From Chrysochromulina tobinii (taxonomy: Eukaryota > Haptophyta > Prymnesiales > Chrysochromulinaceae), in NCBI GenBank assembly GCA_001275005.1, contig JWZX01002857.1, forward strand, positions 1 to 20,367: 20,367 nucleotides of DNA, in the 5' to 3' direction. The notes beneath the pieces are model-generated. The model was given only the letters and a program-made list of their open reading frames with translations, had not been told where the DNA came from and did no database searches. Positions 3,657 through 19,800 of this stretch are shown here, piece after piece. Within the stretch, counting starts at the first letter, position 1. The number at the start of each line of letters is the position of its first letter. A program made the translations under genes and the position numbers.

Positions 3657-6632
3657 ATGGCAAGTTTCGCCCGTCTATTGCAGGAGGCCGTGCAAACGGC
3701 GGTGACTGACATACCCGGCTCCATTGTCAGCGCTGCTGTCGTCCTCGTGATTAACATTACTTGCGCCGGCATCATCTTCCCTGGAAGCCAGTTTGCAGAT
3801 GGAGTAGTGATATGCCTTATGACCTCGGCCGCTGGAACAGCACTCAGTATACCGATCGGAAAAGACCGTCCGCTAAAGTATCTGATGGTGAGCGACACGT
3901 TCATGGCATCGCTCTTCACTGTGGCGTCGAGTAGCATCAGAGCCGGCACACCAAACTACTTTGGCACGCTGGTGGCCACAATGATGTTCAGCAGTCTCAT
4001 CAACGCGCTGTGCTACATCGGTCTCGGCGTTGCCAAAGTGGGCAAGCTTGTCGAGCTCATGCCGTCGCCCGTCATTTCCGGGTACCTCGTCTCCATGGGA
4101 TTCGCTCAGCTATCCTCCGCGGCTAAACTGATTTCCGGGGTCCCTCTGACCGACCCAGCGAGTCTGGCTCATTCGCCGTTGCTACCCTCCTTCTTAGTGG
4201 CACTCGGGCTCGGCAGCACCGTCTATGTTCTGCAGCGCAAAACCACGGGGCTCGTCAACGTGTTGGTCATGCCCACCTTCCTTGGCTTAAGCATCACCAC
4301 ATTTGCTGTCCTCCGCCTGCTGCTGCCCGCCGCTGCACTCTCGGGCGCCTCCTTCGAGGTCCCCGCCTCAGTCGACCTGCTCAAGACGATCGAGCGGCTC
4401 GACCTCTCCAATATCGATTGGAAGTTGGCCTTCACAAGTGCTGTGCCCATCTCGGTCACATCCATGGTGCCAAATACCTTTGGACGGCTCCTCACCTACA
4501 GCTCGCTTGAGTCGAGGTGTGACGTACAGCTCGATTACAACGTGGAGCTGATCGCGAGCGGCGTGATGAACCTGGCGGCCGTACCCGCCGCGATGACTCC
4601 TGCGGTCAGCTTCTCGGGCATGCTTCTGAGCCATATGCTCGGCGCACGAGGCCGACTGCCGCAAGTCGTGGGCATACTGACGAGCGGCTACTTACTCTTC
4701 ATTGGGATGGGGTTGGTCGAGGCACTTCCAAAGATGATGTCCGCTTCGCTCCTGGTCACGCTCGGCTGCAGCTTCCTAGTCAGTGAGCTCACGGACGCGA
4801 TCCAGTGCTTGAAGAAGCAAGAATTCGCTCTGGTGCTAGTGCACCTGGCGGTGACCATCTACTTTGGCATGCTCTACGCCGTGCTGAGTGGGCTCCTCTT
4901 CTCCATGCTCATCTTCATAGTCGACTATGTGAGCCACTCCGGGGTGGTCCAGTCGGCCACGTCAGAACTGAAGCGCTCCACCGTGGTACGCACCAACGAA
5001 GAGTGGGACTTCCTCGCGGAACACGGGGCCTCGACCCTCATCATTCACTTGCAAGGGATGGCCTTCTTCGGCTCAGCGAGCCAGGTGACAGATGGCAATC
5101 GCGCTCATTGTCTGATGAGTGCCTCCCCAATGGCATGCTGAGGCATGCTGAGTGCCTCCCTAATGGCATGCTGAGTGCCTCCCCAATTGCATGATGAGTG
5201 CCTCCCCAATTGCGTGCAGGTGATCGATGTCATGCGCGCTCATCGTCTCGCACTGACGAGCGAAGGGCGGGAGCTTCGGAACATCATCATCGACTGTGAG
5301 CTGTGCCCTATGATCGACACGTCCGCCGTCTCTGCTCTCTTCCTCGCCAGGCGTATCTGCAAGGAAGCAAGGCTCATCTTCACGGCGGCGAATCCCGAGG
5401 TCCGATCGATGATCGAGAAGCGTCGAATCGACTTTCTTTATTTCGAGACGCTGGACGACGCGCTTGAGGCATGTGAAACCGACCTTCTCAAGCTCTATGC
5501 TATCACCCGAGCTCTCTTTCAACGGACAGGCTCTATGTCTGCGATTGAGCGTAGTCCTTCCGCGTCTTCGAACATCTTCGGCCTCTTCCGCCAAATGTCT
5601 CTCAAGCGTACAGGCACCAACTCCCTCTTTCAAGCCCCCGGGGCAGCGGCCAAGGTAGGTCTCGAATCCAAATCGGACCTCACCGAGCCCATGATCATCG
5701 GAAGAAAAGCTTCTGGTGACCGATGGCACAAAGCCGTCCACCTCCACCGCATAAAGAGTGAAGATCTGGTCGGCTCTTCGACGGCCGATAGGGTCGGAGG
5801 CATCGCTGTTTATCCTGCTGAGGAGTGCAAGGCGCACGCGCTCGCAAACCCTGAAGGGCATCGGCGCCTCATCGAGCGCTTCGTGCAGGGGGTGGAGGCG
5901 GTAATTAGCCTCTGATGGCCAATGATGACCTCTGATTGCCACTGGATGCCTCCCTCATCGAGCGCTTCGTGCACGGGATGAAGGCGGCAAATGGGATCCG
6001 AGACCTCTGATTAGCCTCTGATCGCCACTCTGACGACCTCTGCTGGCCACTTGCTTGCCACTGATTGCCTCCCTCATCAGGTACACGGCATCCGAGAGCT
6101 CTCCCCCATCATAGATTACTGTGACGTGGTCGTCTGCATGCCCGATTCTGTTATCTATGACGAGTCCGACACCCTCCGCGCTGGCCCATCGGCGGTCGCG
6201 CAGGGCGACCAGTACCTCTATTTCCTCGACAAGGGCTCGGTGACCGTCTCGCTGGCCGTGGACACCACCTCTGATGCTGCGTCCAAGCACAGGATAGGCA
6301 AAGTCGGGCCTGGTGCTGTACTCTCTCTGCGCTCTTTTATGATGAGTGGGGGGACTCCGGGGTCGCATTCTCCGCTCCCGACGATGGCGGTCGCGGATAC
6401 TGAGTGCCAGCTGCTTCGGCTGAGAGCAGACAGGTACGCAAGTATCGAGAAGGCTGATCCAGCGTTGGCCTGCAGACTCATCCGCTTGCTGCTGCAGGTC
6501 ACCCAAGCACGCTTGGCTGAGGCCGAACAGATTGCAATCTCGTCCCGGTCTCGGCGCAATCTCGTCGAGAAGATCCCCCGTCAGACATCGCCGTCAGACA
6601 TCGCGACGTATGCTCCCCCGAAGTTGCCCTGA
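3657..6632 (+). CDS. SulP-family anion/solute transporter with STAS and cyclic-nucleotide-binding-like domain
   Basis: Three exons, 3657-5084, 5220-5900 and 6081-6632, joined in phase 0, give 886 residues. Residues 1 to about 430 form the multi-spanning SulP core, beginning with DIPGSIVSAAVVLVINI...IIFP and passing through LMPSPVISGYLVSMGFAQL. A STAS domain follows at about 455-565. It is rebuilt only by splicing: HLQGMAFFGSASQ joins VIDVMRAH, followed by the hallmark IIIDCELCPMIDTSAVSAL. After a Ser-rich linker, exon 3 carries a cNMP-binding-like beta roll (about 704-860), seen as YLYFLDKGSVTVSL, KVGPGAVLSLRSF and TECQLLRLRADRY. The usual phosphate-binding cassette (GE...ALL...RxA) is not recognisable, so ligand binding may be lost. 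This order resembles the fungal vacuolar SulP branch typified by yeast Vsb1/Ygr125w more than plasma-membrane sulfate carriers. The substrate cannot be read from sequence. The N-terminus starts only about 18 residues before the first membrane segment. Confidence 0.88.
5085..5219 (+). repeat. SulP intron 1: begins with a diverged copy of exon 2, then tandem repeats
   Basis: The 135-nt GT-AG intron (CAG|GTGACA ... GTGCAG|GTGATC) opens with about 29 nt that match the first 29 nt of exon 2 at 23 positions; both share CGCGCTCAT at the same offset. The rest is built of imperfect units of about 23-25 bp around TGAGTGCCTCCCCAAT, repeated four times. It lies inside the STAS coding sequence and splices in phase 0. 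Confidence 0.85.
5901..6080 (+). repeat. SulP intron 2: CTGATTGCC repeats and an 86-bp duplication of the exon 2 end
   Basis: The 180-nt intron runs from GCG|GTAATT to CCCTCATCAG|GTACAC. It contains many TCTGATTGCC/CTGATGG units. From about 5953 it carries a second copy, offset by 86 bp, of the last part of exon 2 (CCTCATCGAGCGCTTCGTGC starts at 5867 and again at 5953) together with the adjoining intron start. The copy has drifted and contains a TGA, so it is probably not an exon. Confidence 0.8.
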
Positions 6633-16847: not shown

Positions 16848-19800
16848 ATGCTTTTGTCCGTCCTGGGCGCGCTCGGGCGCGCGGGCCTGCTGCACCCGCA
16901 AGAGTCTGAGTCGCGCGAGATCAAGGATCTATCGGGCCTATGGCGCTTCAAGGCCGATTCCGGATCGGGCATGCGCGAGAATTGGCAATCCGGCGCTCTG
17001 TCTTTGCCGACCATGGCCATGCCAGTGCCCTCATCGTACAATGACCTGACGCAGGACGGCGCGCTGCGCGAGCACGTGGGCATCGTCTGGTACGAGCGCA
17101 CTGTCTTCCTGCCGATGCACTGGCTGACTCAGCGCATCGTGCTCTTCGTCGGTTCGGCCAACCACCATGCGGTGGTGTGGATCAACGGCAACTTCGTAGG
17201 AGAACACGAGGGCGGCCACCTGCCCTTCCACCTACCGCTCGAGCAGCTGCACCTGAACTTTGGCCGGCCCAACAGGCTGACCATCGCGGTCAACAACACG
17301 CTCAGCACAACAACGATTCCTCCGGGCATCGTGCAGGTCAACGCCGCTGGTCGCCGCATCCAACGACTGCAGATGGACTTTTTCAACTATGCCGGTCTGC
17401 ACAGGCAGGTGCTGCTGTACACGACGCCGCTGGTGGCGTACCTGGATGACATCCTCGTCTCCTGCCGCCTCGAGGGCGCGATAGCCCATCTCAACGTCTT
17501 CGTCTCCGCCGCGTCCGCTGAACCGCCACCGCCGCCGGGCGCAGTGACGGGCGCCGCGGCTTCATCTGTGCTCATCACGCTGCGCGACGCCGCGGATCAG
17601 GTGGTCGCGCGCGGGCGCATGCCTTCCGATCCGCGCCGTGGCGGGCGGTTGCAGGTGCACGACGCCCAACACGTACCCAACACGACGCGCAGCTCCGGTG
17701 GCCACGCTACATGTCCGTGCATGCAAGTGCTCACCACGGCGCCCTCACCTCTCCCCACATACTCCCCACAGGTGCACGACGCGCAGCTCTGGTGGCCACG
17801 CTACATGTCCGTGCATGCAAGTGCTCACCACGGCGCCCTCACCTCTCCCCACAGGTGCACGACGCGCAGCTCTGGTGGCCACGCTACATGTCCGACACGC
17901 CAGGCTACCTGTACACGATCGTCGTCGAGGTGAGCCCTTGCCCTCCCGCAACGGGCGCTGATGACGTATGATTGCCCTTGAGTGCCTACCTCATCAGGTG
18001 CGCGGCGTCGTCGAGGTGAGCCCCCCCGCGGCGGGCGCTGATGACGTATGATTGTCATTGAGTGCCTACCTCATCAGGTGCGCGGCATCGTCGAGGTAAG
18101 CCCTCGGACCTCGCGGCGGACGCTGATGACATTTGATTGCCACATGGACTCCCTCCCTCATCAGGTCCTCTCCACCGATGGCAACGTCTCCGACACGTAT
18201 CGGCTTAAGTACGGCCTGCGGACGGTCGACGTCACTCCCGAACGCGGCCTCCGAATCAACTCACGTCCCTTTTACTTGCACGGCTTCGGCAAGCACGAGG
18301 ACTCGGAGTTGCGCGGCAGAGGACTCGACCTGCCGCAGCTCGTCAAGGACATGAACTTGATGCGATGGATTGGCGGCAATTCGATCCGCACGACACACTA
18401 TCCGTACTCGACGGAATTCTTGCAGATGTGCGATGAGCTCAGTTGATGAGCTCAGTTGATGAGCTCGGATGAGCTCGGATGAGCTCGGATGAGCTCGGAT
18501 GAGCTCGGATGAGCTCAGATGACGTCCGATGAGCTCTGATGGCATCTGATTGCCTCCGCCATCAGGAGTGATGAGCTCGGGATTGCCGTCATTGGCGAGG
18601 CCCCCGCCGTCGGGCTGCAGAGCGTGAACATGGTACGCGAGACGCTGCGCACCCACCTTGAGGTGATGGGCGAACTCATCATGCGGGACAAGAACCACCC
18701 GTCGGTCATCATGTGGTCGGTTGCTAATGAGCCCGATTCCGAGGCGCCGAGTGCGGCCACGTACTTCAAGCACTTGATCGCCCAGACGCGCGCCCTCGAC
18801 CCGTCCCGGCCGGTGACATTTGCGACGTTCAAGGCGCCCGAGAAGGACGTTGTGTGCCAGCACGTGGATCTGATCATGGCCAATCGGTACCACGCATGGT
18901 AACGAGCAGCCGCCAGCCCTCCTTGCCTCTGATTGCCTTGATCACACGAGCAGCCGCCAGACCTTCTTGCCTCTGATTGCCTTTGGTTGCCTCCGATCGC
19001 CTCTGATCGCCTCCGATCGCTTTCCGATCGCCTCTCTAATTGCATCTCGGATTGCCTCCCTCATCAGGTACACCAGCACAGGCCAGCTCGACATCGTACC
19101 TTATACGCTCCGCAGTGACCTAGTCAACTGGCGGGGCCGCTTCGGCAAGCCGGTGATGCTCTCCGAATATGGCGCCGGCGCAGCATGCATGTGCTCACTA
19201 CGGCGCCATCGCCTCCCCACAGGTGATGCTCTCCGAATATGGCGCCGACGCAGTCGAAGGCGTGCACAGCGACCCTCCCATCGCCTTCTCAGAAGAGTTC
19301 CAAGCGGCGTATCTACGTGCCCATTTTGGCGTCTTCGACGAGCTCATGCAGGCACGCGAGCCCGTCCCCGTTCCGAGCCGCGTGTCGCCTCCGCTCGCCC
19401 CCGCGGACCGCTCATCCTGACCAGCGCTCGGGTTTGGTTGTGCTCGCGACGGCGCGCAGGCGGGCATCCTCGTCGGCGAGCACGTGTGGAACTTTGCGGA
19501 CTTTATGACGGCACAGGGCGTGACGCGCGTCGTGGGCAACCGCAAGGGGGTCTTCACGCGTTCCCGCCAGCCCAAGCTCGCGGCGCATACTCTTCGAGAG
19601 CGTTACTGGACAATCGCCAATCGCTCCACCCGCTGGCCGCTCTCGCTGGCCCAACTCGGCGCGACGTCTCGCGTCCGCGACGTCAACGCACCGACGGGTG
19701 CGAGCGCCACCGGCGCCGCCGTCGCCTCGAGCGCTAAGATGGGCGCGCCCAGCAATCGCGCTGCATCGGAGCGACGCGCTGCACTGGGCAGCCGTTTGGA

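Follow-up and report, generated by a model that had tools for sequence, protein, structure and literature searches.

The beta-glucuronidase locus and its seventh intron

The window, that is, the whole stretch of 20,367 nucleotides of Chrysochromulina tobinii contig JWZX01002857.1 that was analysed, holds a sulfate-transporter-like gene (SulP) and a beta-glucuronidase gene (GUS), the introns of the latter being numbered GUS-1 to GUS-8 in the spliced model. The features around GUS-7 are as follows.

From 16848, + strand: beta-glucuronidase gene (spliced model)
19068..19152, + strand: exon 5' of GUS-7, ending in ...FGKP (gene model and alignment to 1bhg)
19153-19222, + strand: GUS-7, 70 nt, with 31 nt copied from the next exon and then a tail of 39 nt (direct repeat and frame)
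19153..19183, + strand: first copy of the duplicated target, with GT at 19153-19154 as the putative 5' splice site (30/31 identical repeat; frame)
19184..19222, + strand: GUS-7 tail, 39 nt, made up of a head, a candidate branch point, a pyrimidine-rich stretch and the end CCCCACAG
19223..19253, + strand: original target, the 5' end of exon 19223-19351 (repeat, gene model and alignment to 1bhg)

With seven introns taken out, the protein encoded up to 19222 aligned with residues 11-570 of human beta-glucuronidase (1bhg) at E 1.3e-145, and the alignment spans the GUS-7 junction. The eighth intron, GUS-8 (19352-19459), is of the GC-AG type, and its removal keeps the frame open beyond. The preliminary description of this locus had read GUS-7 as a 31-nt exon copy plus a 39-nt tail with one mismatch between the target copies; this was confirmed, the mismatch being G at 19178 against A at 19248, and when the 45 bases at the start of the exon were shuffled, 0/500 shuffles reached the repeat score. 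The duplication can also be read as 32 nt, because G19152 and G19222 match as well. The head of the tail is GCATGCATGTGCTCACTACGGCGCC, its first G lying at 19183, and A19197 within CTCAC is the candidate branch point. Inside the duplicated stretch lies the codon of the SEYG motif at 19235-19237, which we take to be the nucleophile motif of beta-glucuronidase. Removal of GUS-7 keeps the frame and restores SEYGADA, and its retention shifts the frame. The proposal that splicing between 19152 and 19223 would restore the coding frame therefore held, and both the frame and the homology across the junction agree with removal of GUS-7 from the mRNA.

Searching with the predicted empty-site protein gave four proteins at E 1e-8 or better. 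The metagenome proteins P0123 (3 member sequences) and P0124 (5) are without GUS-7, and they start within GUS-6 sequence, cross the GUS-7 site and continue past the next donor. As they include GUS-6 and post-donor sequence, they should represent DNA without GUS-7 or, less likely, transcripts spliced here only. P0125 (6 member sequences) reads through GUS-7 and thus represents the filled allele; in its first copy, D takes the place of the G encoded in the window, and the two copies of that allele thus agree at the mismatched codon. P0126, a 71% relative, is uninterrupted at the GUS-7 site and could be a transcript. Two further relatives (P0007 and P0008, 68%) were read by eye as uninterrupted at the sites of GUS-1 to GUS-5 and, in a shifted frame, at GUS-7, with an intron-like stretch kept near the GUS-6 site. 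The metagenome sequences with and without GUS-7 appear to come from the same species, and the presence of both filled and empty alleles therefore points to a young intron gain. At GUS-7, the sole locus tested in this way, an empty site for insertion into an exon was found, and the intron-less sequences looked for since the first description are P0123 and P0124.

Related introns and the tail repeat family

Further features of the window that resemble GUS-7 in part are:

17655..17854, + strand: GUS-1 (intron 1), same tail family as GUS-7, with two tandem units of target copy plus tail (direct repeats)
17772-17854, + strand: second unit of GUS-1, 83 nt
5085..5219, + strand: intron in the sulfate-transporter-like gene, its first 29 nt a decayed copy of the next exon (0/500 shuffles)
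18428..18565, + strand: intron with the end GCCATCAG and a possible small duplicated target, TGATGAGCTCGG (0/500 shuffles)

In the shuffle test, which covered ten modelled introns of the two window genes, a clear copy of the next exon was detected in three (SulP-1, GUS-1 and GUS-7), with GUS-5 weak. The scores of GUS-2 and GUS-3 arise from a tandem intron-exon repeat, and the test detected no copy of the next exon in SulP-2, GUS-4, GUS-6 or GUS-8 (46/500 shuffles for GUS-8). For intron 18428..18565 the evidence is weak because it sits within a 10-bp tandem array. The tail of intron 5085..5219 is of a different kind from that of GUS-7; P0121, a relative of the sulfate-transporter-like gene listed with PF00916, has a protein reading that suggests a better kept exon copy at the site of this intron. 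P0012 (36 member sequences) was seen by eye to represent a GUS-1 allele with one unit of copy plus tail, against two in the window. At 17930-18164, two 18-nt micro-exons (VRGVVE and VRGIVE) lie between three similar short introns; the region is a tandem intron-exon duplication, which gives about 12 extra residues relative to human beta-glucuronidase.

The tail is not confined to GUS-7 and GUS-1; such a confinement had been named in the preliminary description as a refutation. In the genome searched (53.15 Mb, 2,253 contigs), the 24-base tail head gave 1,061 + 1,163 = 2,224 matches at three mismatches or fewer, and a reversed control pattern gave 0. The exact head together with CCCCACAG occurs 271 times, with GT next in 237/271, and the segment between the head and the CCCCACAG end varies in length and sequence. 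Taken broadly, as many similar introns in one genome, the term introner applies to this family, whose members are predicted to be introns from their structure. In IMG/VR the tail head matched one contig end (L138:4496-4554), where a head of the GUS-7 type is followed by a pyrimidine-rich stretch and then CACAGGTGAGT.

The repeat survey comprised 174 distinct copies with enough flank, 153 of them with a recognisable 3' end. Loci came from searches for the tail repeat and from 20 stretches of 3 kb, with neighbouring tandem copies included, so that the figures describe the tail family and not all introns. A flanking repeat was defined by locally aligning the 80 bases that precede the head with the 60 that follow AG, a score of at least 12 being required; by this measure a direct repeat flanks 122/153 copies, against 2.2% of mismatched pairs, and 31/153 have no clear flanking repeat. 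The expectation that tail matches would lie at intron-like 3' ends between direct repeats was thus mostly upheld. The downstream repeat begins exactly after AG in 96 of the 122, and among those 96 the upstream copy starts with GT in 88 and GC in 5, preceded by G at position -1 in 80 and A at -2 in 54. For the 93 clean GT or GC cases the repeats are 16-53 nt long (median 31) and 100% identical in 36; the median distances are 36 from donor to head, 42 from head to AG and 78 in total, and the first two lengths are uncorrelated (Spearman 0.05). Against a looser control, which has neighbouring heads within it, the 99th percentile was reached by only 70/174 copies, and by 7/21 of those without a CCACAG-type end.

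A second family, the CATCAG family, behaves similarly. Its pattern TGATTGCCTCCCTCATCAGGT gave 1,411 + 1,503 genomic matches at two mismatches or fewer (control 0), and GT comes next in 42 of the 71 copies examined. Flanking repeats reach a score of at least 18 in 26/71 copies, against 4.4% of controls, and of at least 11 in 39/71, against 14%. The top scores belong to tandem arrays (such as L047 and L008), and among the single copies L013, L019, L021, L036, L043 and L063 are clear, their duplications measuring 17-41 nt. Since this tail is unrelated in sequence to that of GUS-7, the behaviour is not bound to one sequence. The window also holds 10-bp tandem arrays at 1534-1646 (CAGTGCTCAT) and 18448-18557 (GATGAGCTCG), which resemble the units of the CATCAG tail family. 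A mirror-type element at L002:1341 (+), L127:149 (-) and L037:2303 (-) starts with its own GTACGTTGATTGCC-like 5' splice site and contains a head of the GUS-7 type; a copied stretch of the exon upstream seems to provide its 3' splice site. At L069 and L071 lies a different repeat family, in which AAGTCCGGGTTA and its complement recur densely.

Departures from the usual geometry

The 5' junction of the insert varies, from overlap with the head up to at least 20 bases of filler, the larger values being inflated by mismatch decay. The filler is in some cases the flank of another copy, both locally (L025, L060, L012/L041, L122/L123 and L031) and across contigs (L009/L026, L004/L020, L006/L093, L124/L126 and others). 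A common flank was found in 11/180 same-contig pairs against 17/14,702 cross-contig pairs, with different downstream exons; these pairs are not independent. Few loci account for the 11, two of which (L049 and L075) may be tandem or inverted duplications; among the 17, at least 6 are members of a longer family that has a GTACGTTGATTGCC-like start of its own. The flank in common between L134 and L135 falls outside the pair count, having been filtered. A genome-wide search with the flanks of two copies returned the copies themselves and, for one, also a place with two mismatches, and no clear donor was seen in it.

Duplications extend across the splice site at L109, L119, L134 and L135. Some copies stop before AG, and some without AG lie within open frames, as at L055, where the frame has 864 codons. 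Unit length is divisible by three in the open frames of L088 (60 nt), L100 (48 nt), L023 (75 nt) and L114 (63 nt), and not in L121 (83 nt) or the minus-strand L075 copy (77 nt). Chance alone can give long frames in GC-rich DNA, and both orientations of L036 are open, which leaves L055 as the only strong case. In the open frames of L088 and L100 the head falls within tandem repeats, of 20 and 16 codons respectively, and is possibly read as protein.

Fragments in opposite orientation were also observed. At L075, two identical 25-bp repeats enclose an insert of 52 nt (1398-1449) that matches the reverse complement of 2120-2171 at every base. The latter stretch is part of an intron-like copy 670 bp off and takes in 20 nt of that copy's own target half. 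The insert is truncated at its 3' end and has no AG/GT, and at one of its two junctions an imperfect 11-nt match of target and donor was seen by eye. It sits in a small array, as 21 bp of the repeat are present in a third copy beside it, at 1327; this place was thus hit more than once or duplicated. At L067, a tandemly repeated 31-nt stretch runs opposite to a presumed intron tail at +820, with which it is identical.

Considering the variable 5' junction, the copied flanks and the opposite-orientation insert, the inserted sequence can be an intron piece with ends that are not fixed. The same junctions and flanks, with L075 and L067, indicate that neither orientation nor AG/GT is strictly required, and the duplications that span the splice site together with the copies lacking AG suggest that the usual geometry is largely the work of selection. 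The preliminary description had proposed insertion of a short element carrying only a 3' splice site, with a long target duplication. The flanking repeats and empty alleles support the insertion and the long duplication; the 3' splice site is not always carried and the 5' end is not fixed, and inserts of the GUS-7 type resemble a classical fixed-end transposon less than had been implied.

Origin of the inserts and comparison with known systems

We lean towards the view that GUS-7 arose recently by insertion of a short intron piece, through templated filling of a widely staggered break. In the model proposed, the two strands of the target would be nicked at positions separated by tens of bases and so opened, or template switching would re-copy the target; part of an existing intron would then be copied into the gap, the fill-in leaving the target duplicated at both sides. 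The piece inserted into the beta-glucuronidase exon would bring a branch point, a pyrimidine tract and AG. Where a duplicated target starts with (A)G/GT, its first copy could act as the 5' splice site and the fragment would supply branch point and AG; the mRNA would be unchanged and the insert would survive. Selection by splicing would retain those inserts whose duplicated target begins with GT, and each new intron might serve as a template, by which the family would grow. The long and variable direct repeats indicate a widely staggered opening of the target, or its re-copying; these repeats, the non-fixed ends and the orientation are the reasons why templated filling is favoured, with a mobile element making long duplications as the main rival.

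Such an element would be non-autonomous and moved by a transposase, an integrase or a target-primed reverse transcriptase with an unusually long staggered cut. We regard it as rather unlikely, although thousands of matches with a well-kept head and end speak for it, as does the composite-looking insert at L009 (tail-target-tail), in which the 74-nt second unit matches the L026 intron on another contig at 72/74 positions. The best argument for a mobile element comes from a scan for repeat-plus-filler structures in 80 kb of sequence, made up of the window and 20 evenly spaced 3-kb stretches from the contig list. Judged by eye, most of the 49 structures found were repeat arrays, tandem or of other kinds, or tail modules, the latter being prominent; other fillers, L068 and L072 for example, were few. 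If any template could be used, random fillers should be common, and their scarcity suggests something specific about the modules. Templated filling is further weakened by the 31/153 copies that have no clear flanking repeat, by the flank searches with two copies, which gave no clear donor, and by the position of the L075 insert in a small array. One of the 49 was tagged AG/GT by the scan rule, which missed GUS-7 because its repeat reads as 32 nt. A broader survey of direct repeats at any base in the same 80 kb gave 1,197 matches, swamped by other repeats; AGGT was absent from the 15 commonest contexts and present in seven matches. Against a mobile element stand the range of duplication lengths, the variable 5' junction with, in some copies, another copy's flank, the 3'-truncated L075 insert and, as judged by eye, no visible terminal inverted repeat, GCATGCAAG... 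and ...CCCCACAG not looking complementary.

It is improbable that excised intron RNA reverse-splices at AG/GT into DNA or RNA and is then reverse transcribed, like group II intron retrohoming. The downstream repeats that start exactly after AG, at targets that are mostly (A)G/GT, would fit such a process, but selection for splicing predicts the same bias. Reverse splicing as the sole mechanism was set aside in view of the spanning duplications, the copies without AG or AG/GT, the copy in a long open frame and the copy in opposite orientation. Plain tandem duplication of an AGGT-containing exon segment is very unlikely: GUS-7 does begin with an exon copy and tandem arrays of target plus tail do occur, but the 39-nt tail lies outside the duplicated exon and its head recurs genome-wide, so that this explanation, which leaves the tail unaccounted for, was rejected on its own. 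Mis-assembly can occur with short repeats, but an assembly artefact is scarcely credible here, as independent metagenome proteins cover both the filled (P0125) and empty (P0123 and P0124) sites and the insertion sites are many and different.

Parts of this structure are known from other systems. Some earlier introner families have duplications of 3-9 bp (PMC9860276), the range also expected of an introner derived from a cut-and-paste DNA transposon, and the 16-53 nt found in our 93 copies lie outside it. In Symbiodinium microadriaticum the introner supplies the 3' splice site, a 4-bp duplication supplies the 5' splice site, and terminal inverted repeats are present (Gozashti et al., 2022; PMC9860276). 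The tail family likewise is a repeated element with one splice site from the duplication and an unchanged coding sequence, and differs in its far longer duplications, in the absence of inverted repeats by eye, in its variable 5' end and in the copied flank of some members. The introners of Amoebophrya (PMC7789003) are also repeated introns whose borders with the exons carry direct repeats. They differ from the tail family in that these direct repeats measure 3-5 nt, in having inverted repeats (8-20 nt) and in their non-canonical splice sites. New introns of Daphnia pulex have been attributed to repair of staggered double-strand breaks, with exon-border repeats of 4-12 bp (PMC4202315). Here too direct repeats of variable length lie at opposite intron ends with filler between them, but they exceed 4-12 bp, and a few modules occur at thousands of places, whereas the available text of PMC4202315 mentions no comparably large single family. 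As in tandem duplication of AGGT-containing exon sequence (PMC3443670), an exon copy provides the 5' splice site, and here a non-exonic repeated tail would give the branch point and AG. Excerpts of two other reports describe direct repeats of 4-30 bp (mean 11.4) near the borders of 213 introns (Rogers and Bendich, 2025; PMC11782384) and, in a mirusvirus study, introners without duplications (PMC12768974). Introner duplications of tens of bases were not named in the titles and abstract beginnings covered by our literature search, many subscription papers lying outside its scope.

The search rule of Gozashti et al. demands similarity reaching close to both splice sites (PMC9860276). This is a search rule and not a definition, and the tail family falls outside it, the first 36 nt (median) of each intron being target copy or filler. 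Surveys based on similarity at both ends could therefore miss tail-family introns, because only the 3' half is in common; the C. tobinii genome may already be among those surveyed by Gozashti et al.

How thousands of introns originate at once in some lineages is a question on which opinion is split between transposon and break-repair models. In the apparent mass intron gain described here, the footprints (long variable duplications, common flanks and an opposite-orientation fragment) fit break repair, and the scale fits a mobile element. As a tentative generalisation, introns might give rise to further introns with no transposase involved: pieces of excised intron RNA, or of intron DNA, would be the templates for filling widely staggered breaks, in either orientation and often in nearby genes, and selection for splicing alone would make a subset of them new introns and so the next templates. 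Since filled and empty alleles both exist at GUS-7, the mechanism is directly testable.
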